Shown: positions 6,289 to 45,783 of the stretch, piece after piece
Layout of the letters: the number at the start of each line of letters is the position of its first letter
How positions within the stretch are numbered: the stretch's first letter is position 1
Assembly: GCF_003633895.1 (NCBI RefSeq)
Contig: NZ_RBID01000013.1
Location: 62,001-126,000, forward strand
Length of the DNA: 64,000 nt
From: Vogesella indigofera
GTDB taxonomy: Bacteria > Pseudomonadota > Gammaproteobacteria > Burkholderiales > Chromobacteriaceae
Direction of reading: 5' to 3'
Notes under the pieces: model-generated
Databases searched by the model: none
Told to the model about the DNA's origin: nothing
Seen by the model: only the letters and a program-made list of their open reading frames with translations
Translations under genes and position numbers: made by a program

Positions 6289-6632
6289 AAAACCGAACCG
6301 ATGCACCCCATCCCGTGGGCGCAAGCCGTGCAAACTGTTGCCAGCCCGGAAGCAAGCCGCCCTCTTTTGAGCGCAGCGGATGGGCGGCGCCGGGATGGCG
6401 GCGGTTTGCACGGGAATTCTTGCGCCTTCGGGAGAGCGGGGATTGGAAAGGGGGATGCGGCATCCCCCTTCCCCGCCGCCGCGCGGCAAGCGGCAAATAA
6501 AAACCATCCGCGCAGCGGATACCCAAGACAAAACAAGGTTGGCCGCAAACCCGTTACAGTTTGCGGCCAACCCTAGTCATTAATTCGCGGTAAACGTTGG
6601 GCTTCGCTACGCTCAACCCAACCTACAGTACT
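6289..6632. repeat. Tandem repeat unit A
   Basis: Unit A and unit B (6659-7021) share long blocks in the same order: gcgcaagccgtgcaaa, a block around ccctcttttgagcgcagcg, the atgggcggcgccgggatggc region, cacgggaattcttgcgcc, a paired AAGGTTGGCCGCA stem, and an end block gttgggcttcgctacgctc followed by cctacagtact. Unit A has an extra ggattggaaagggggatgc region that unit B replaces with a hairpin. Confidence 0.8.
6535..6574. repeat. Head-to-head pair of the dispersed word
   Basis: GGTTGGCCGCAAAC (6537-6550) and its exact complement (6559-6572) form a 14-bp stem with an 8-nt loop. It lies inside tandem repeat unit A; no T-tract follows, so it is not a clear terminator. Confidence 0.85.
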
Positions 6633-6825
6633 ACGACCTACCTGAACACCACGCCTCACAAAAACCAGAACCGCACCGACGCCCCCCCATTCCCGTTGGC
6701 GCAAGCCGTGCAAATTGTCGTCAGCCCGGAAACAAGCCGCCCTCTTTTGAGCGCAGCGTATGGGCGGCGCCGGGATGGCGGCAGTTTGCACGGGAATTCT
6801 TGCGCCGTCGGGTCGCCTTTTCTTT

Positions 6826-6861
6826 GGCTACTTTCTTTTGGCGAAGCAAAAGAAAGTAGCC
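6826..6861. repeat. Perfect 15-bp hairpin inside repeat unit B
   Basis: ggctactttcttttg (6826-6840), loop gcgaag, caaaagaaagtagcc (6847-6861). The sequence resembles the ctttctttggctactttcttt-type hairpins I know as common dispersed elements of beta- and gammaproteobacteria. Confidence 0.75.
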
Positions 6862-6923
6862 CGCCACCGCGCGGCAAGCGGCAGATAAAAAACATCCGCA
6901 CAGCGGATACCCCAGACAAAAAC

Positions 6924-6963
6924 AAGGTTGGCCGCAAACCCATCACGGCTTGCGGCCAACCTT
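6924..6963. repeat. Head-to-head pair of the dispersed word
   Basis: AAGGTTGGCCGCAA (6924-6937) and its exact complement (6950-6963), 14-bp stem, 12-nt loop, inside tandem repeat unit B at the place matching the pair in unit A. The two loops differ but the arms are kept. Confidence 0.85.
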
Positions 6964-7020
6964 GGTCATTAATTCGCGGTAAACGTTGGGCTTCGCTACG
7001 CTCAACCCAACCTACAGTAC

Positions 7021-7491
7021 TTAGTGCGTTCCCCCATCGTACTGCCGCAACAGCATCAAAACCTCCGCGTGCTGATACAAATCAGCATAGCGCACCGCAT
7101 CCTGAATATGATCGGCAGTAGGACGTAGCTTCAATAGCTGGCTCACGCGCAGCGCGTCACCCTGGCGTGCCGCATCTTTCAACGCGTTGGCCAAATCATC
7201 GCCAATCAAGCCGCGCACTGCCGCCGGCAGATCCGCTACCGGCACCAGCGCCCCTCCGCAGTGCTTGCACTTCACCGCGTCATTCCGCACCAGTTCCTTA
7301 CAGTCCGGGCAGCGCACATGCGTATCTGGATGCGGCGCCTCCACATCCCTTTTCAGCGATGGCAGCACCACCACAAATATCACCCCGATCCAGCCCAGCA
7401 GCCACCACCAGCCAGAACGACCACGACTTTTCGCCGCCAGATATGCCAGTACGCACCCCGCAAGCGTGAAAAAGAAAAACTCCACAATCAC
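7021..7491 (-). CDS. Small membrane protein with zinc ribbon
   Basis: About 156 aa, function not recognised. The N-terminus has two hydrophobic stretches (FFFFTLAGCVLAYLAA and WWWLLGWIGVIFVVVLP), then a CPDC...CKHC zinc ribbon near residues 60-80, then a helical C-terminus (LKDAARQGDALRVSQLLKLRP) that resembles a single ankyrin-like or TPR-like repeat. The start is GTG; 7491 gives the longest frame, but a GTG at 7485 sits five bases behind a GAGAGG ribosome site and is the better candidate. The stop codon abuts the repeat island. Confidence 0.6.
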   Translation of the reverse strand: MIVEFFFFTLAGCVLAYLAAKSRGRSGWWWLLGWIGVIFVVVLPSLKRDVEAPHPDTHVRCPDCKELVRNDAVKCKHCGGALVPVADLPAAVRGLIGDDLANALKDAARQGDALRVSQLLKLRPTADHIQDAVRYADLYQHAEVLMLLRQYDGGTH

Positions 7492-10803: not shown

Positions 10804-10878
10804 GTCTCCGTAGTTAAATGGATATAACAGCCCCCTCCTAAGGGGCAGTTACAGGTTCGATTCCTGTCGGGGATACCA
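10804..10878 (+). tRNA. tRNA-Arg (anticodon CCT)
   Basis: 75 nt including an encoded CCA. The acceptor arm GTCTCCG pairs with CGGGGAT using G-T wobbles; the anticodon loop CTCCTAA sits on a CCCC/GGGG stem; the T arm reads ACAGGTTCGATTCCTGT. It lies 17 bp after ispB. Confidence 0.95.
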
Positions 10879-13116: not shown

Positions 13117-13725
<609 letters not shown>

Positions 13726-13730
13726 TCGCG

Positions 13731-13769
13731 GCGCAAGGTTGGCCGCAAGCGTTGCGGCCAACCTTGCGC
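13731..13769. terminator. Perfect 18-bp stem made of two dispersed words, after wrbA
   Basis: gcgcaaggttggccgcaa (13731-13748), a 3-nt loop, then its exact complement (13752-13769). It begins 5 bp after the wrbA stop codon. There is no clear T-tract, so it may end transcription by structure alone or protect the 3' end. Confidence 0.7.
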
Positions 13770-14019
13770 TGCCCGCCGCATTGCTCCACGCCTTATTTCT
13801 CCGCGCCTCACCTCGCCAGCCGCCCCCCTCCACCCCATATTTCCCGCCAAGCCGCGCCGGCAACGGAACCGCGCCCCCGGCCGCCGGTCAAATCGACGCG
13901 CAACGGCTGGACAAGCCCACCGTCCGCGCCCACAACAAATGGCCGCGCCCCGCCCGCCGCATGGCGTTCGGGGTCAACGCGTGCCTTATATTTTCTACAC
14001 ACAAGGAGTCATCAACACC

Positions 14020-14991
14020 ATGGAACAGGCCCTCCCCTCGATCGGATCGCCTTTCTTTTACGCTGTCTTTTTCGTGGCCGTACTGCTCATGATCGCCGTC
14101 GACATGCTGGCACTGAAGCAGAGCGGCTCCCACAAGGTGTCGATCAAGGAAGCCGGCATCTGGTCGGCGATCTGGGTCGGCGTCGCCTGCAGCTTCGGCG
14201 GCTGGCTGTGGTGGTATCTGGCCAATGATCCGGCCTACGGCCCCGCCGTCGCCAACCAGAAAACACTGGAATACTTCACCGGCTACGTGATCGAAAAATC
14301 GCTGGCCGTCGACAACATCTTCGTGTTCCTGCTGATCTTCGGCTTCTTCAAGGTGCCGGTGGAGTACCAGCGCCGCGTGCTGCTGTACGGCGTGTTCGGC
14401 GCCATCGTACTGCGCACGGTGATGGTGTTCCTGGGCGCGGCGCTGGTAAAGGAATTCAGCTGGATCCTGTACGTGTTCGGCGCCTTCCTGCTGTTTACCG
14501 GCCTGAAAATGATGCTGCCGGAAAAAGAGGAAAAGGAAGACCTGACCAATAACGCGCTGCTGCGCTTCCTGCGCCGCCACATGCGCATTACCGACGACTA
14601 CCACGGCGAAGCCTTCTTCGTGATGAAGAACGGCCTGCGCTACGCCACGCCGATGTTCCTGGTGCTGATGATGGTGGAGCTGTCCGACGTGGTGTTCGCG
14701 GTGGACAGCATCCCGGCCATCTTCGCGGTGACCATGGATCCGTTCATCGTGCTGACGTCCAACATCTTCGCCATCCTCGGCCTGCGCGCGATGTTCTTCC
14801 TGCTGGCGGATGTGGCGGACCGCTTCCACCTGCTGCGTTACGGTCTCGCCATCGTGCTCAGCTTCATCGGCGTCAAGCTGCTGATGCTGGAGTTCCTGCA
14901 CATCCCGGTGGCGGTGTCGCTGGGCGTGGTGTTCGTGGTCATCATCGGCTCGGTGATCGCCTCGCTGCTGTTCCCGAAAAAAGCCGCCTGA
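14020..14991 (+). CDS. TerC-family integral membrane protein
   Basis: 323 aa with eight or so membrane segments. TerC hallmarks: EKSLAVDNIFVFLLIF, the GALVKEFSWILYVFGAFLLFTGLKM segment and VELSDVVFAVDSIPAIFAVTMDPFIVLTSNIFAILGLRA. These acidic membrane residues are implicated in metal transport; family members (Alx, MeeF/MeeY) export Mn or supply metal to secreted proteins. The start has AAGGAG 11 bp ahead. I looked for a yybP-ykoY Mn riboswitch in the 250-bp leader and did not see one. Confidence 0.92.
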   Translation: MEQALPSIGSPFFYAVFFVAVLLMIAVDMLALKQSGSHKVSIKEAGIWSAIWVGVACSFGGWLWWYLANDPAYGPAVANQKTLEYFTGYVIEKSLAVDNIFVFLLIFGFFKVPVEYQRRVLLYGVFGAIVLRTVMVFLGAALVKEFSWILYVFGAFLLFTGLKMMLPEKEEKEDLTNNALLRFLRRHMRITDDYHGEAFFVMKNGLRYATPMFLVLMMVELSDVVFAVDSIPAIFAVTMDPFIVLTSNIFAILGLRAMFFLLADVADRFHLLRYGLAIVLSFIGVKLLMLEFLHIPVAVSLGVVFVVIIGSVIASLLFPKKAA

Positions 14992-15000
14992 CCCGGCTGT

Positions 15001-15045
15001 GCCTGCGGCCAACCTTGGCGTCACAAGGTTGGCCGCAGGCTTTTT
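15001..15045 (+). terminator. Terminator of terC built from a pair of dispersed words
   Basis: gcctgcggccaacctt (15001-15016), 8-nt loop, and the exact complement (15025-15040), followed at once by TTTTTC. It starts 9 bp past the terC stop codon. This is a textbook intrinsic terminator whose stem is two opposed copies of the AAGGTTGGCCGCA word. Confidence 0.92.
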
Positions 15046-18435: not shown

Positions 18436-18511
18436 TGGTGGGTCGTGCGGGATTCGAACCTGCGACAAACGGATTAAAAGTCCGCTGCTCTACCAACTGA
18501 GCTAACGACCC
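18436..18511 (-). tRNA. tRNA-Lys (anticodon TTT)
   Basis: 76 nt with encoded CCA. Acceptor GGGTCGT/ACGACCC, D arm TAGCTCAGTTGGTAGAGCA, anticodon loop CTTTTAA, T arm GCAGGTTCGAATCCCGC. All arms pair. Confidence 0.96.
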
Positions 18512-37520: not shown

Positions 37521-39872
<2,352 letters not shown>

Positions 39873-40182
39873 GCGCCGGATAGTGCCCGTCCGGCGCGCC
39901 GGGCGCGGCCGGTGCCATCTCCCCCGCTTGCGGCCAACCTGCGCCCAGGGTTGGCCGCAACGCCTCATGGCTCATCGCAACGGCATTGTTGTGCATTGCC
40001 GCATTTCGATAGATTTTTCACCTCGTTTGCGCCAGATCAGTTCCCGTTTTTGCACCCGCCGCGTATTTGCTTCATCATTGGCGAGGCAATCGCGCAATTA
40101 AATTCCATTGTCATTGACGATCCTGCCATCGTGTCCATGCCGCAGCGCGCCATGGCGACCCAACGATAACGAGACTGGATGG
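39873..40182. other. 310-bp intergenic region
   Basis: Contains the paired-word stem at 39928-39960 after fadH and an AT-richer stretch at about 39985-40115 that probably holds the promoter of the binding-protein/GGDEF-EAL pair. I cannot name -35 and -10 boxes. No gene is seen. Confidence 0.65.
39928..39960 (+). terminator. Stem of two dispersed words after fadH
   Basis: ttgcggccaacc (39928-39939), 9-nt loop, ggttggccgcaa (39949-39960); 12-bp perfect stem, 55 bp past the fadH stop. No T-tract, so termination is uncertain. Confidence 0.55.
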
Positions 40183-41007: not shown

Positions 41008-44000
41008 TGCGTCTGCCGCTGCGTCCCCGTTCGCTGAAATGGGCCATCATCCCGGTGCTGCTGCTGATCCAGCTGCTGGTGTTTGCCGGCATTGCCTGGC
41101 AGAGCGTGCGCGTGCTGCAGGACACCGCGGTGGCGCAGGCACAACTGCGCACCCGCAGCCTGCACAGCGAGCTGCAGGCTGCGCTGATCGCGCCGCTACT
41201 GGAGCGCGACTTCATCACGCTGCAGGAGATCGCCAGCGAGCTGACCCACGGCGGCGACATTGCCTACCTGATCATCCGCGACTCCAGCGGCAAGGAGCTG
41301 GCGCGCGCCGGCCTCGCCGATGGCCTGCAGCCGCAAGCGGACCGCTCGCTGCCGGACAGCGACGACGACATCTTCGACACCCGCTTCAAGATCAGCCAGG
41401 GCCAGATCCAGGCCGGCCTGCGGCAGAGCGAATCCAGCCGCATGCTCAGCGGCCTCGCGCAGCGCACCGGGCCGCTGATCGTCGCCGGCATCATCCTCGC
41501 CACCGGCTGGATGATCTGGGTCACGCTGTGGCTGAGCCGGCGGCTGCAATACCTGTCCCTCGCCGCCGAGGCGCTGGGGCAAGGCAAGCTGCTGACGCGG
41601 GCGCCGGAAAGCCGCCACGACGAGATCGGCCGCCTTGGCGCCGCCTTCAACCGCATGGCGGCGGCGGTGCAGTCCGCCGACGAGCACTGGGCCAAGAGCC
41701 AGCGCTTTGCCGACATGCTGCTGATGGCGATCCCGATCCCGATGTTCTACAAGGACGCGCAGGGGCGCTTCCTCGGCTGCAACGCCGCCTTCACCCGCGT
41801 CACCGGCTACGGCCGCATCGACATCCGCGGCAAGACCCCGGCCGAGCTGTGGCCGGCCGACATCGCCGCGGTGCACTGCCTGCACGACGCCGAACTGCTC
41901 GCCGGCCAGCCGCACCTCGACTACCAGGCCAGCATCGTCACCCAGCGCCAGCAGCGCCGCGAGGTGATCCTGTCCAAGGACGTGTTCTACAACGACCACG
42001 GCGACATCGCCGGCATCATCGGCGCCTGGAACGACATCACCGAGCAGACCCGCGCCGAAGAACGGCTGCGACTGCTGGCCGGCGTGTTCAAGCACTCCCA
42101 CGACGGCATCATCATTGCCGATGCCCGCGGCCGGCTGCTGGACGTCAACCGCGCCTGCTGCAGCATCACCGGCTACGAGCGCGACGAGCTGATCGGCCAT
42201 ACCCCGCGCAAGCTGCAGTCAGCACGCCACGACTCGGTGTTCTACCTCGCCATGCGCGACAAGCTGCAGAGCAGCGGCCACTGGCAGGGCGAGATCTGGA
42301 ACCGGCGCAAGGATGGCGAGGTGGCACCGCTGCTGCTGTCGGTGTCGGTGATCCACGACCAGTCCGGCAATGTGCGCCACTACATCGCGGTGTTCGCCGA
42401 CATCACGGTGATGAAGGCGCAGGAAAACCGGCTGGCGCAGATGGCGCACCACGACCCGCTCACCCAGCTGCCCAACCGCGTGCTGCTGGCCGACCGCATG
42501 AAGGTGGCCATCGCCCAGGCGCAGCACAGCGGCCACTGGCTGGCGATCTGTTTCATGGATCTGGACGGTTTCAAGGCGGTCAACGACCGCTACGGCCACG
42601 AGGTCGGCGACCGCCTGCTGGTGCAGGTCGCCGAGCGGCTGCAGCACACGCTGCAGGGCGGCGACACCCTGGCGCGGCTGGGCGGCGACGAGTTCGTGCT
42701 GCTGCTGTCCGGCCTGCCCGACCTGCAGACCTGCCGCCACAGCCTGCAGCGGGTACTGGACACCGTCGCCCACCCGGTCTTGCTGGGCGACATCCACATC
42801 GAGATCTCGGCCAGCATCGGCGTCACGCTGTATCCGCAGGACGAGCAGGACCCGGACACCCTGCTGCGCCACGCCGACCAGGCGATGTACCAGGCCAAGG
42901 AAAAGGGTCGCAACGGCTACCAGATCTTCGACGCCGAGCACGACCGCCAGAGCCGCTTCCGCCAGGAAGGGCTGGGGCGGCTGGCGCAGGCGCTGCAGCA
43001 AGGCGAGCTGTGCCTGTTCTACCAGCCCAAGGTCAATATGCGCGACGGCAGCGTGGTCGGCGCCGAGGCACTGATGCGCTGGCAGCATCCGGACAAGGGC
43101 CTGCTGACCCCGGCCCACTTCCTTGACGACGCCGAAGGCAGCGCGCTGGACATCGCGCTGGGCGAATGGGTGCTGCGCAGCGCGCTGGCGCAGATGCGCT
43201 TCTGGCAGGCGCAGGGCATGACGCTGCCGGTCAGCGTCAACATCTCCGCCTATCACCTGCAGCAGGACAACTTCGCCGAACGGCTGGCGGCGCTGCTGGC
43301 GGAATACCCGGAGTTGCCGGCCGGAATGCTGGAAATCGAGGTACTGGAAAGCACCGCGCTGAAGGACATCACCCGCGTCGGCGCGCTGATGACCACCTGC
43401 CGCGAGCTGGGGGTGGAGTTCTCGCTCGACGATTTCGGCACCGGCTACTCCTCGCTGCTGTACCTGAAGCGGCTGCCGGCCGGCAAGCTGAAGATCGACC
43501 AGTCCTTCATCCGCGACATGCACGAGGACGGCGACGACCTCGCCATCGTGCAGGGCATCATCGGGTTGTCGGAGGCGTTCAGCCGCTCGGTGGTGGCCGA
43601 GGGCGTGGAGAGCATCGAGCACGGCAGCCTGCTGCTGCACATCGGCTGCGACCACGCGCAGGGCTTCGGCATCGCGCGGCCGATGCCGGCGGACGCGCTG
43701 CTGGGCTGGGCGCAGCAGTGGCAGGGCGCCGCCGCCTGGCAGCTGGCCAGCAAACGGCGCTGGACCGGCGACGACACCAAGCTGTTCAACCTGGAGCTGG
43801 CGCACCGCCAGGCCAGCAACCGCCTGATCGACTGGCTGCAGCAGGGATCGCGCGAGCTGCCACAGCAGGAGAACAGCAACAGCTACCGCGATTTCGACAA
43901 CTGGTATCACGGTGCCGGCAGTGCCTACTTCGGCCAGCACCCGCTGTACCACCGCATCGGCCAGCTGCACCAGCAGCTGTACACCCTCAACGAGCGGGTA

Positions 44001-44165
44001 CTGACCTGGCGCCAGTTCGAACTGCAGGACGCCGACGAGCAGACCGTGAACCAGCTGCAGCAACTGCGCGACGAACTGCAGCAACAGGTGCGCCAGCTGC
44101 TGGATGCGCCGGCGACCGCGGCGGCGGCAGCAGCGGCGAAAACCGCCGCCGAAGTGATGATCTGA
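41007..44165 (+). CDS. HAMP-PAS-PAS-GGDEF-EAL protein with CZB-like tail
   Basis: 1052 aa. Two membrane helices (about 10-32 and 155-175) flank a periplasmic domain; HAMP; PAS (about 245-350); PAS (about 355-470); GGDEF intact (LARLGGDEF; no RxxD site); EAL intact (GAEALMRWQHP, SLDDFGTGYSS). The last 120 residues resemble a CZB zinc-binding domain (ELAHRQASNRLIDWL, NWYHGAGSAYFGQHPLYHRI, HQQL), but the expected cysteine before WY is not there. Predicted to make or break c-di-GMP in response to the co-translated binding protein. Confidence 0.9.
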   Translation: MRLPLRPRSLKWAIIPVLLLIQLLVFAGIAWQSVRVLQDTAVAQAQLRTRSLHSELQAALIAPLLERDFITLQEIASELTHGGDIAYLIIRDSSGKELARAGLADGLQPQADRSLPDSDDDIFDTRFKISQGQIQAGLRQSESSRMLSGLAQRTGPLIVAGIILATGWMIWVTLWLSRRLQYLSLAAEALGQGKLLTRAPESRHDEIGRLGAAFNRMAAAVQSADEHWAKSQRFADMLLMAIPIPMFYKDAQGRFLGCNAAFTRVTGYGRIDIRGKTPAELWPADIAAVHCLHDAELLAGQPHLDYQASIVTQRQQRREVILSKDVFYNDHGDIAGIIGAWNDITEQTRAEERLRLLAGVFKHSHDGIIIADARGRLLDVNRACCSITGYERDELIGHTPRKLQSARHDSVFYLAMRDKLQSSGHWQGEIWNRRKDGEVAPLLLSVSVIHDQSGNVRHYIAVFADITVMKAQENRLAQMAHHDPLTQLPNRVLLADRMKVAIAQAQHSGHWLAICFMDLDGFKAVNDRYGHEVGDRLLVQVAERLQHTLQGGDTLARLGGDEFVLLLSGLPDLQTCRHSLQRVLDTVAHPVLLGDIHIEISASIGVTLYPQDEQDPDTLLRHADQAMYQAKEKGRNGYQIFDAEHDRQSRFRQEGLGRLAQALQQGELCLFYQPKVNMRDGSVVGAEALMRWQHPDKGLLTPAHFLDDAEGSALDIALGEWVLRSALAQMRFWQAQGMTLPVSVNISAYHLQQDNFAERLAALLAEYPELPAGMLEIEVLESTALKDITRVGALMTTCRELGVEFSLDDFGTGYSSLLYLKRLPAGKLKIDQSFIRDMHEDGDDLAIVQGIIGLSEAFSRSVVAEGVESIEHGSLLLHIGCDHAQGFGIARPMPADALLGWAQQWQGAAAWQLASKRRWTGDDTKLFNLELAHRQASNRLIDWLQQGSRELPQQENSNSYRDFDNWYHGAGSAYFGQHPLYHRIGQLHQQLYTLNERVLTWRQFELQDADEQTVNQLQQLRDELQQQVRQLLDAPATAAAAAAAKTAAEVMI

Positions 44166-44226
44166 GCGGCGGCGTCAGCGTGCGCGCCGCCTCAGCGCCA
44201 GACGCCCAGGGTTGGCCGCAACGCCG

Positions 44227-44715
44227 TCAGCGCAGCGGCAGCGCCTTCATCAGCTCCGCCTCGCTCACCAGCCCGGCGAGGCGCGCCAGCGGCCGGCCCT
44301 GTTCGTCCAGCACCACGGTAAACGGCAGCCCGCCGCTGCGGTTGCCCAGCGCGCGCATCAGCGCGATGCCCTCACCATCGCTCATCAGCACCGGATAGCT
44401 GACCGGCAGCTGCTTCAGGTAGGCCGCCACCTCGCCCGGCTGGTCCAGCGCGATGCCGACGAAGCGCACCTGGCGTGCGGCCAACCTTGGCGCCAGCGCC
44501 GACAGCAGCGGCATCTCCTTGCGGCACGGCGCACACCAGGTGGCCCAGAAATTCACCACCGTGGTCTTGCCCTGGTAGCGGGCAAAGCTGGCCGGCTTGC
44601 CGTTAAGCTCGGTCAGCACGGCGCTGTCCAGCAGGCCGCCGGCCACGGCACCCAGCGGCAGCAGCAACAGGCCGCCCAGCAGCAGGCGGCGCGAAAGCAT
44701 GGTTTTTACAGACAT
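44227..44715 (-). CDS. TlpA-like thioredoxin, exported
   Basis: 162 aa. Signal sequence (RRLLLGGLLLLPLGAVAGG) and thioredoxin fold with WATWCAPCRKEMP, cis-proline region SGGLPFTVVLDEQG. A second TlpA-like protein in the window (the other is at 22044). Starts at 44715 or 44700 are both possible. A dispersed word at 44477 reads PRLAAR. Confidence 0.88.
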   Translation of the reverse strand: MSVKTMLSRRLLLGGLLLLPLGAVAGGLLDSAVLTELNGKPASFARYQGKTTVVNFWATWCAPCRKEMPLLSALAPRLAARQVRFVGIALDQPGEVAAYLKQLPVSYPVLMSDGEGIALMRALGNRSGGLPFTVVLDEQGRPLARLAGLVSEAELMKALPLR

Positions 44716-44838
44716 CAGTTTATTCCGGAGTAATGCGTCAGATGGCGTTAGATCGCCACCAGTACGCCACAGTTCAGCGCGGCACGGCCGCGGCTTCGTG
44801 ATAGAATGGTCGATTCCCCTTCTGTTGACGCACGGGCC

Positions 44839-45783
44839 ATGTCCATTCTCGTTTGCGGGGCGCTAGCCTACGACACGCTGTTCAATTTCGAAGACCGCTT
44901 CGATAACCATATTCTGCCCGATCAGCTGCACAAGATCTCGACCACCTTCAAGGTGCCGACCATGCGCCGCGAGTTTGGCGGCCCGGCCGGCAACATCGCC
45001 TACAGCCTGTGCCTGCTCGGCGAGACACCGCTGGTGATGGGCGCGGTGGGCGAGGACTTCGAGCCCTACCGCCAGCACCTGAAGCGCGCCGGCGTCGACG
45101 ACCGCTTCATCCGCACCATCCGCGGCCAGTACACCTCGCAGTGCTTCGGCATCGCCGACAAGGATGGCAACCAGCTGATGGCCTTCCATCCCGGCGCCAT
45201 GGACCACGCCACCGTCAACCACATCGCCGACGTGCCACAGCGCATCGAGGTGGCGATTGTATCGCCTGGCGGCCACGCCGCCTTCCTGCAGCACACCCGC
45301 GAGCTGCACGAGGCCGGCATCCCGTTCATCTTCGACCCCGGCCAGGAGCTGCCGCTGTTGTCGCGCGAGGAACTGAACGAGATCGTGGAACTGGCCAGCT
45401 ATGTCGCCATCAACGACTACGAGAGCGAGCTGATGCGCGAACGCGCCGGGCTGCCGGTAGAGGTGCTGGCCGGCAAGGTCGAGGCGCTGATCGTCACCCG
45501 CGGCTCCAAGGGCGCCGAGATCTACGCCGACGACACCATCCACCTGATTCCGCGGGTGCAGATGCCGATCAAGCCACTGGACCCGATGGGCTGCGGCGAC
45601 GCCTTCCGTGCCGGCCTGCTGTACGGCATCAAGCAGGGGCTGGACTGGAAAACCACCGGCCGCCTCGCCAATGTCATCGGCGCGATCAAGGTCACCAGCC
45701 ACGGCCCGCAGAACCACTTTTTCGACTGGGAAAAACTGCGCGCGCTGTACCAGCAGGCCTATAACGAACCGTGGCCGCTGTAA
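44839..45783 (+). CDS. PfkB-family carbohydrate or nucleoside kinase
   Basis: 314 aa. REFGGPAGNIAYSLCLLGETPLVMGAVGEDF (first PfkB signature) and PLDPMGCGDAFRAGLLYGIKQGLDW (second, with catalytic Asp). The substrate may be adenosine or a sugar; the protein resembles the adenosine kinase-like group of betaproteobacteria. The start is the ATG before SILVCGALAYDTL. Confidence 0.88.
   Translation: MSILVCGALAYDTLFNFEDRFDNHILPDQLHKISTTFKVPTMRREFGGPAGNIAYSLCLLGETPLVMGAVGEDFEPYRQHLKRAGVDDRFIRTIRGQYTSQCFGIADKDGNQLMAFHPGAMDHATVNHIADVPQRIEVAIVSPGGHAAFLQHTRELHEAGIPFIFDPGQELPLLSREELNEIVELASYVAINDYESELMRERAGLPVEVLAGKVEALIVTRGSKGAEIYADDTIHLIPRVQMPIKPLDPMGCGDAFRAGLLYGIKQGLDWKTTGRLANVIGAIKVTSHGPQNHFFDWEKLRALYQQAYNEPWPL

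Follow-up and report, generated by a model that had tools for sequence, protein, structure and literature searches.

Mirrored copies of a word abundant in Vogesella genomes stand after genes and probably help to stop transcription

Background

At several gene ends in a 64,000-nucleotide stretch of the Vogesella indigofera genome (hereafter the window), two copies of one short word lie close together in opposite orientations. What such pairs do is the question that this locus raises. The first-pass annotation of the window proposed that the word has been recruited as a transcription terminator. There is a precedent: in the available part of Kingsford et al. (2007, PMC1852404), the terminator function of paired uptake words (DUS) in Neisseria is argued from the same kinds of evidence as we assemble here. 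Vogesella, a water bacterium, is placed in the Neisseriales, in the family Chromobacteriaceae.

Results

The 10-mer GGTTGGCCGC was found 36 times (17 + 19) in the window, against 0.45 copies expected from base composition. Our sample of the V. indigofera genome totals 864 kb in 41 stretches: besides the window, it includes 39 evenly spaced 20-kb stretches and one (C5) chosen for a pilin gene. In these, a purpose-built codon model called 779 genes (85% coding). The exact 10-mer occurs 371 times in this sample, from which a genome total of about 1,554 was estimated, and a second form, CGTTGGCCGC, adds 166 copies, so that one position tolerates C. Across the whole 3.62 Mb genome, the 12-mer GGTTGGCCGCAA has 323 + 318 copies, while its reversed-pattern control has 0. 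The consensus derived from the word flanks is approximately CAAGGTTGGCCGCAA, which can also be written as roughly CAA[G/C]GTTGGCCGCAA, and it is found on both strands. When 399 sampled genomes of the order were searched for the 12-mer, each of six Vogesella genomes held 319–654 copies, and none of the other 393 had more than 7 among the matches listed. Within this 399-genome sample, the word is confined to the genus. In one further Vogesella genome (G312), word copies also form a tandem array with 12-bp spacing (contig C28, 74196-74265).

Single words in the 864-kb sample (n = 287) lie mostly in coding sequence (188), with 64 in co-directional, 22 in convergent, and 13 in divergent gaps. Words inside coding sequence show a preferred orientation and frame, 71 of 187 being antisense in frame 0, where they read Ala-Ala-Asn. 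An A/T-rich extension was looked for in the flanks of single words and none was seen.

An abundant word will sometimes fall next to itself, and as the sample points to some 1,550 exact 10-mers in the genome, the pairs might be chance neighbours. For about 1,554 words, chance would give about 10 pairs of each kind, inverted and direct, at gaps of 0–30 nt. The whole V. indigofera genome holds 174 inverted pairs (107 in the order +- and 67 in the order -+) and 0 direct pairs at that spacing, counts that refute chance proximity and leave it a probability of practically nil. The 12 other Vogesella genomes each have 43–105 +- pairs against 0–10 direct pairs, the -+ order having been counted in V. 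indigofera only; the highest direct count, 10, is that of G312, its tandem array included. The excess of +- over -+ is weak, at 107:67 genome-wide and at 40 +- to 48 -+ among the 88 simple gene-end pairs described below. Near-loopless palindromes of the form GGTTGGCCGCATGCGGCCAACC recur in two other genomes (G399 and G367) and in V. indigofera.

The window contains five opposed pairs, three of them behind plus-strand genes. The terC gene (14020..14991, PF03741; start at 13981 in the codon-model call) is followed, 13 nt past its stop at 14991, by a -+ pair at 15005..15036 on the plus strand. Its extended 17-bp stem (15001-15040) adjoins a TTTTT tract at 15041..15045, also on the plus strand, which makes it by anatomy the complete intrinsic terminator that the first-pass annotation took it to be. 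That annotation also placed terminators behind two genes to which it gave the names wrbA and fadH. The wrbA-like gene (13132..13725, plus strand) belongs to the NADPH-dependent FMN reductase family (PF03358), and a +- pair at 13737..13763 (plus strand) lies 11 nt past its stop at 13725. The fadH-like gene (37851..39872, plus strand) encodes an NADH:flavin oxidoreductase plus pyridine nucleotide-disulphide oxidoreductase (PF00724, PF07992) and has a -+ pair at 39930..39958 (plus strand), 57 nt past its stop at 39872. The word-pair hairpin was found at both ends, but the U-tract is absent: the stems are directly followed by tgcccgcc (wrbA) and cgcctcat (fadH), so these are hairpins without a tract. 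The remaining two pairs, both +- and assigned to the minus strand, are at 6537..6572 and 6926..6961, the latter with TTTTT on its minus-strand side.

RNA folding gave −42.7 kcal/mol for the terC pair, −43.7 for wrbA, and −29.1 for fadH, with −33.6 and −37.6 kcal/mol for the pairs at 6537 and 6926. The z scores of the five stems range from −3.9 to −8.5, and for each of them 0 of 200 shuffles folded as well; opposed copies do form long stems at all five sites, as had been claimed. At the gathering threshold, Rfam returned only two tRNAs for the window, with tRNA genes at 10804-10875 and 18439-18511.

Stem-loops at gene ends had also been assigned to the pairs at 6537 and 6926. The opposed copies are there, but they are not simple gene-end hairpins, since their flanks are common to other copies of a longer, dispersed repeat, and they do not belong in a count of gene-end terminators. 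This composite repeat measures some 370–600 bp, is intergenic, and occurs in many copies in V. indigofera and other Vogesella genomes. Copies that carry a word pair were found at 6450-7020 in the window, at 13180-13797 of L060, and at 7950-8560 of L063. The repeat is clustered in places, for example at 42860-45335 of V. indigofera contig C2. The only gene call around the two window pairs is a weak one (7021-7383, score 13), with a zinc-ribbon match just above the cut-off.

To the 42 pairs of the 864-kb sample we added 48 more stretches around further listed pairs, which gave 103 pairs with a required gap of 0–40; the overlapping pair at L041 19098 counts towards the 42 and falls outside the 103. 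A text pattern assigned 94 of the 103 to a simple and 9 to a composite class. It missed the composite nature of at least one pair, at L060 13109, which is for that reason counted as simple.

Could all the pairs, then, be mobile palindromic repeats of the REP/BIME or MITE kind, spread by a transposase? A minority sits in the composite repeat with shared flanks (9 of 103 by the text pattern, plus at least one recognised by eye). The simple pairs, however, have only the word in common, with loops and flanks that vary by locus, and both arm orders are found. REP/BIME elements are known as strictly extragenic and as going with a REP-associated transposase (RAYT) in the genome; the Vogesella word departs from the first of these traits, 188 of its 287 single copies being in coding sequence. 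As an account of the pairs in general, we regard mobile repeats as highly improbable.

The position of the pairs relative to genes is far from even. In the 864-kb sample, 21 of the 42 pairs lie in convergent gaps, 20 in co-directional gaps, 1 in coding sequence, and 0 in divergent gaps. The 94 simple pairs divide into 47 convergent, 41 co-directional, 1 divergent, 3 in coding sequence, and 2 at stretch edges. Convergent gaps hold half of the simple pairs (47/94) and make up 93 of the 473 gaps that are at least 40 bp long. All but one of the simple gene-end pairs (87/88) have a stop no more than 100 nt away, the nearer of the two stops being used in convergent gaps. At co-directional ends, 34 of 41 are within 40 nt of the stop, where random placement in the same gap gave a mean of 18.6 and a maximum of 27 (5,000 simulations). 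The pairs cluster behind genes and all but avoid divergent gaps. A lack of enrichment after stop codons had been named in advance as grounds for abandoning the terminator proposal; the enrichment is present in the sampled stretches. A stable GC-rich hairpin, as found in the five window pairs that were folded, and a position close after a stop, as found for the 94 simple pairs, are both what a terminator would have.

Counted per gene end, a word pair lies within 100 nt past the stop at 32 of 204 convergent ends (a convergent pair may count for both genes), 15 of 283 spaced co-directional ends, and 2 of 252 operon-like ends, and upstream of 0 of 61 divergent starts. Hairpins with a T-tail that do not contain the word were found at 89 of 172 convergent, 104 of 268 spaced co-directional, and 22 of 250 operon-like ends (14, 27, and 10 after shuffling), and upstream of 10 of 61 divergent starts (3 after shuffling). 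Both kinds rank the gene ends in the same way, convergent above spaced co-directional above operon-like. Within co-directional gaps, the relative position of 19 pairs did not differ from that of 62 single words (p = 0.82). Single words there lean towards the stop as well. Pairs are therefore set apart by their inversion and their absence from divergent gaps, and not by nearness alone.

These positions bear on a further alternative, in which the pairs are kept for reasons at the DNA level, as a stronger uptake site, a cruciform, or a site for a dimeric protein, and gene ends merely tolerate them. Several pairs are almost loopless palindromes, such as GGTTGGCCGCATGCGGCCAACC, and intergenic space is permissive. 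Divergent gaps are equally non-coding, yet they hold 0 of the 41 intergenic pairs in the position-chosen sample, where they make up 25% of the intergenic length (gaps of at least 40 bp; p = 7e-6), and 1 of the 94 simple pairs. The pairs also show a T-bias in the sense direction, and we consider a DNA-level explanation quite improbable.

That bias was measured as runs of T within 20 nt of the stem. Among the 41 co-directional simple pairs, 8 have a run of at least four T on the sense side and 1 has such a run on the antisense side (p = 0.039); for runs of at least three, the numbers are 17 and 4, respectively (p = 0.001). Among the 47 convergent simple pairs, T4 flanks the stem on one or both sides in 32, where about 19% would be expected (p = 2e-13). 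The T-bias tracks gene direction. At the same time, 33 of the 41 co-directional simple pairs have no T4 downstream, wrbA and fadH among them. The tail is therefore real in sum and missing in most co-directional cases. Ordinary intrinsic terminators resemble the terC pair and many convergent pairs in combining a GC-rich hairpin with a T-tract; the Vogesella pairs differ from them in that the stem is a genome-wide word and in that most co-directional pairs lack the tract.

We compared the same gene ends across relatives. The terC loci nearest by identity among those named are from V. alkaliphila (98%) and V. margarita (97%), an identical or very near record possibly being left out of this ranking. 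A word pair follows terC at four loci, in V. alkaliphila, V. margarita, V. fluminis, and the window. The other five Vogesella-like terC loci among the matches listed (L003-L006 and L008) have, by eye, a different GC-rich hairpin with a T3 to T5 tail, and two Craterilacuibacter loci have a hairpin without a T-tract. Behind fadH, 5 of 13 Vogesella genomes carry a word pair without a U-tract, and the other 8 carry a hairpin that does not contain the word and has a T-tail. For three of those eight (G401, G402, and G404) the perfect-stem scan gave another stem and the hairpin was read by eye. In this, too, terC and fadH are like ordinary terminator sites, the relatives having other hairpins with T-tails at the same ends.

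Six further gene ends (slots A, B, C, E, G, and H), not selected for their terminators, came from two pair-rich stretches. Where a relative lacks the exact pair, a hairpin with a T-tail stands in its place in 8 of 8 cases at A and 7 of 8 at H, one of the seven (G392) being itself a near-word pair. The corresponding figures are 2 of 4 at G (slot placed in at least 6 of 12 relatives), 2 of 10 at B, 0 of 9 at E, and 0 of 7 at C (slot placed in at least 10 of 12 relatives). At slot A, an ordinary second hairpin with a T-tail lies 3' of the pair in the same genomes, so the pair may be redundant there. The pair at slot B overlaps the region just before the start of the next gene; G401 and G117 were counted there as lacking the exact pair, their own pair having one arm with a one-letter variant, and G392 was dropped for want of a clear match. 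At slot E, the distant matches may be paralogues. Summed over the six slots, a hairpin with a T-tail was found in 19 of 46 cases, which is not above gene ends generally (104/268 and 89/172). Exchange of one hairpin for another is clear at terC and fadH, both singled out by the first-pass annotation, and at slots A and H; it is partial at G, and B, C, and E show little or none of it. As a general proof we rejected it, the overall figure being the base rate. Given these uneven results, slot exchange speaks for terminators at certain gene ends but fails to do so at the rest.

The missing tails and the slots also bear on the alternative that the pairs are stabilisers of RNA 3' ends or processing stops, that is, stem-loops that block exonucleases behind Rho-dependent termination. 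In its favour, T4 is absent downstream of 33 of the 41 co-directional simple pairs; the five window stems are very stable; and the slot A pair is followed by a second hairpin with its own tail. Against it are the T-bias along the gene direction, strong in convergent gaps, and the relatives at terC, fadH, A, and H, in which a different hairpin with a T-tail follows the same gene. On balance, we think it unlikely that stabilisation is what the pairs are for.

Discussion

We conclude that mirrored word pairs after genes probably help to stop transcription, a reading drawn from sequence and predicted folding. To the proposal as a whole, in which a genus-specific word, paired after genes, forms hairpins that act as 3'-end signals, we give a probability of roughly three in four. 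The mechanism would run as follows. A word that is probably uptake-related is spread on both strands through Vogesella genomes, and would spread by uptake and recombination. Wherever two opposed copies come to stand just after a gene, the sequence and its folding give a GC-rich RNA hairpin of ten or more base pairs, and selection would keep pairs in this position for the sake of that hairpin. With a U-tract, as at terC and at many convergent gene pairs, the result would be a full intrinsic terminator acting alone. Without one, as at wrbA and fadH, it may be a weaker or assisted terminator, aided by Rho, or may serve to protect the RNA 3' end. The suggestion that the word was recruited as a terminator thus holds in part. 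The gene-end enrichment, the constant inversion at gaps of 0–30 nt in V. indigofera, the nearly empty divergent gaps, and the T-bias along the gene bear it out, but it does not extend evenly to wrbA, fadH, and the rest of the 33 of 41 co-directional pairs without T4, to the repeat-borne pairs at 6537 and 6926, or to the six slots with their 19 of 46.

The spread of the word over both strands and its density in coding sequence make it resemble an uptake word; DUS occur hundreds to thousands of times in a genome, on either strand and within coding regions as well, a trait that the Vogesella word shares. By these sequence traits it is likely to be a DNA uptake word. As far as the accessible text of PMC1852404 and PMC3630211 goes, paired DUS in Neisseria are similar in being an abundant short word on both strands, in that inverted pairs are enriched between tail-to-tail genes while direct pairs are rare, and in having the T-tail on the side to which the gene points. 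Tail-to-tail enrichment and rarity of direct pairs, as in paired uptake-word terminators, were both found in Vogesella. The systems differ in family and in word, in the strong +- bias of Neisseria, which in Vogesella is weak (107:67), and in the few U-tracts at Vogesella co-directional ends. Paired uptake words (USS) of the Pasteurellaceae, in the available part of PMC1852404, are likewise co-opted into terminator hairpins; theirs is an unrelated word, and Vogesella single words have no A/T-rich flank extension.

Eight DUS dialects share a CTG core according to the available text of Frye et al. (2013, PMC3630211). CTG is absent from both strands of the consensus CAAGGTTGGCCGCAA, and we therefore do not file the Vogesella word as a DUS dialect. 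In the part available, the same authors report on five genomes (Laribacter, Lutiella, Pseudogulbenkiania, and two Chromobacterium) in which they saw no obvious DUS, and on a BLAST search of C. violaceum that gave no ComP; they have DUS arise only once the lineage had separated from Chromobacterium. In a 2025 paper (PMC12616744), again in its accessible part, sequence-specific uptake systems are known in two families, Neisseriaceae and Pasteurellaceae. Our literature search, which covered sources other than subscription papers and preprints, returned no description of an uptake sequence for Vogesella, only matches unrelated by title for the word fragment GTTGGCCGC with 'uptake', and nothing related for Vogesella with natural competence.

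Neisserial DUS raise DNA uptake and transformation and have the minor pilin ComP as their receptor; for the Vogesella word, a receptor was sought among the pilins. The globular part of one minor pilin of C11, at locus L037 (1405-1830 of that locus, minus strand), matches the ComP chains 2nba (7.9e-10), 2m3k, and 5hz7, the segment ENAIFLEEFYHRHGSYKLTPTRWPALPV aligning with ENARFMEQFYAKKGSFKLTSTKWPELPV of 2nba; its strongest matches, however, are to ordinary pilins, along the N-terminal helix. Chain 2nba is used as a ComP structure in the available part of PMC12061091. Scored against a 35-residue piece of 2nba, L037 reached 110 of 182, a second pilin (L036) 16, and the twelve top PF16732 loci of the order 24–66. 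By its sequence, L037 is a candidate receptor of the word. Its globular part is more ComP-like than that of L036, the higher-scoring Pfam match. L036 had been put forward as ComP on its Pfam score (71 bits, with 0 of 14 control genomes matching) and was rejected: the same model, PF16732, has matches in 302 of the 399 genomes of the order, so a match alone means little as evidence of ComP, and the 23 matches of L036 include ordinary pilins and a PilE but no ComP chain.

Conclusions

Taken together with the pilin, the word suggests that Vogesella may have an uptake system of its own outside the two known families, in which a CTG-less word would be read by a diverged ComP-type pilin (L037), and that the word was separately made into gene-end hairpins, a third lineage of uptake-word terminators. 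We hold this to be somewhat better than an even bet. Gene ends that swap word hairpins and other hairpins between species would make the turnover of such signals testable. If the wider reading is true, a genus of the Chromobacteriaceae would offer a third lineage for testing how uptake words arise and how they become terminators.
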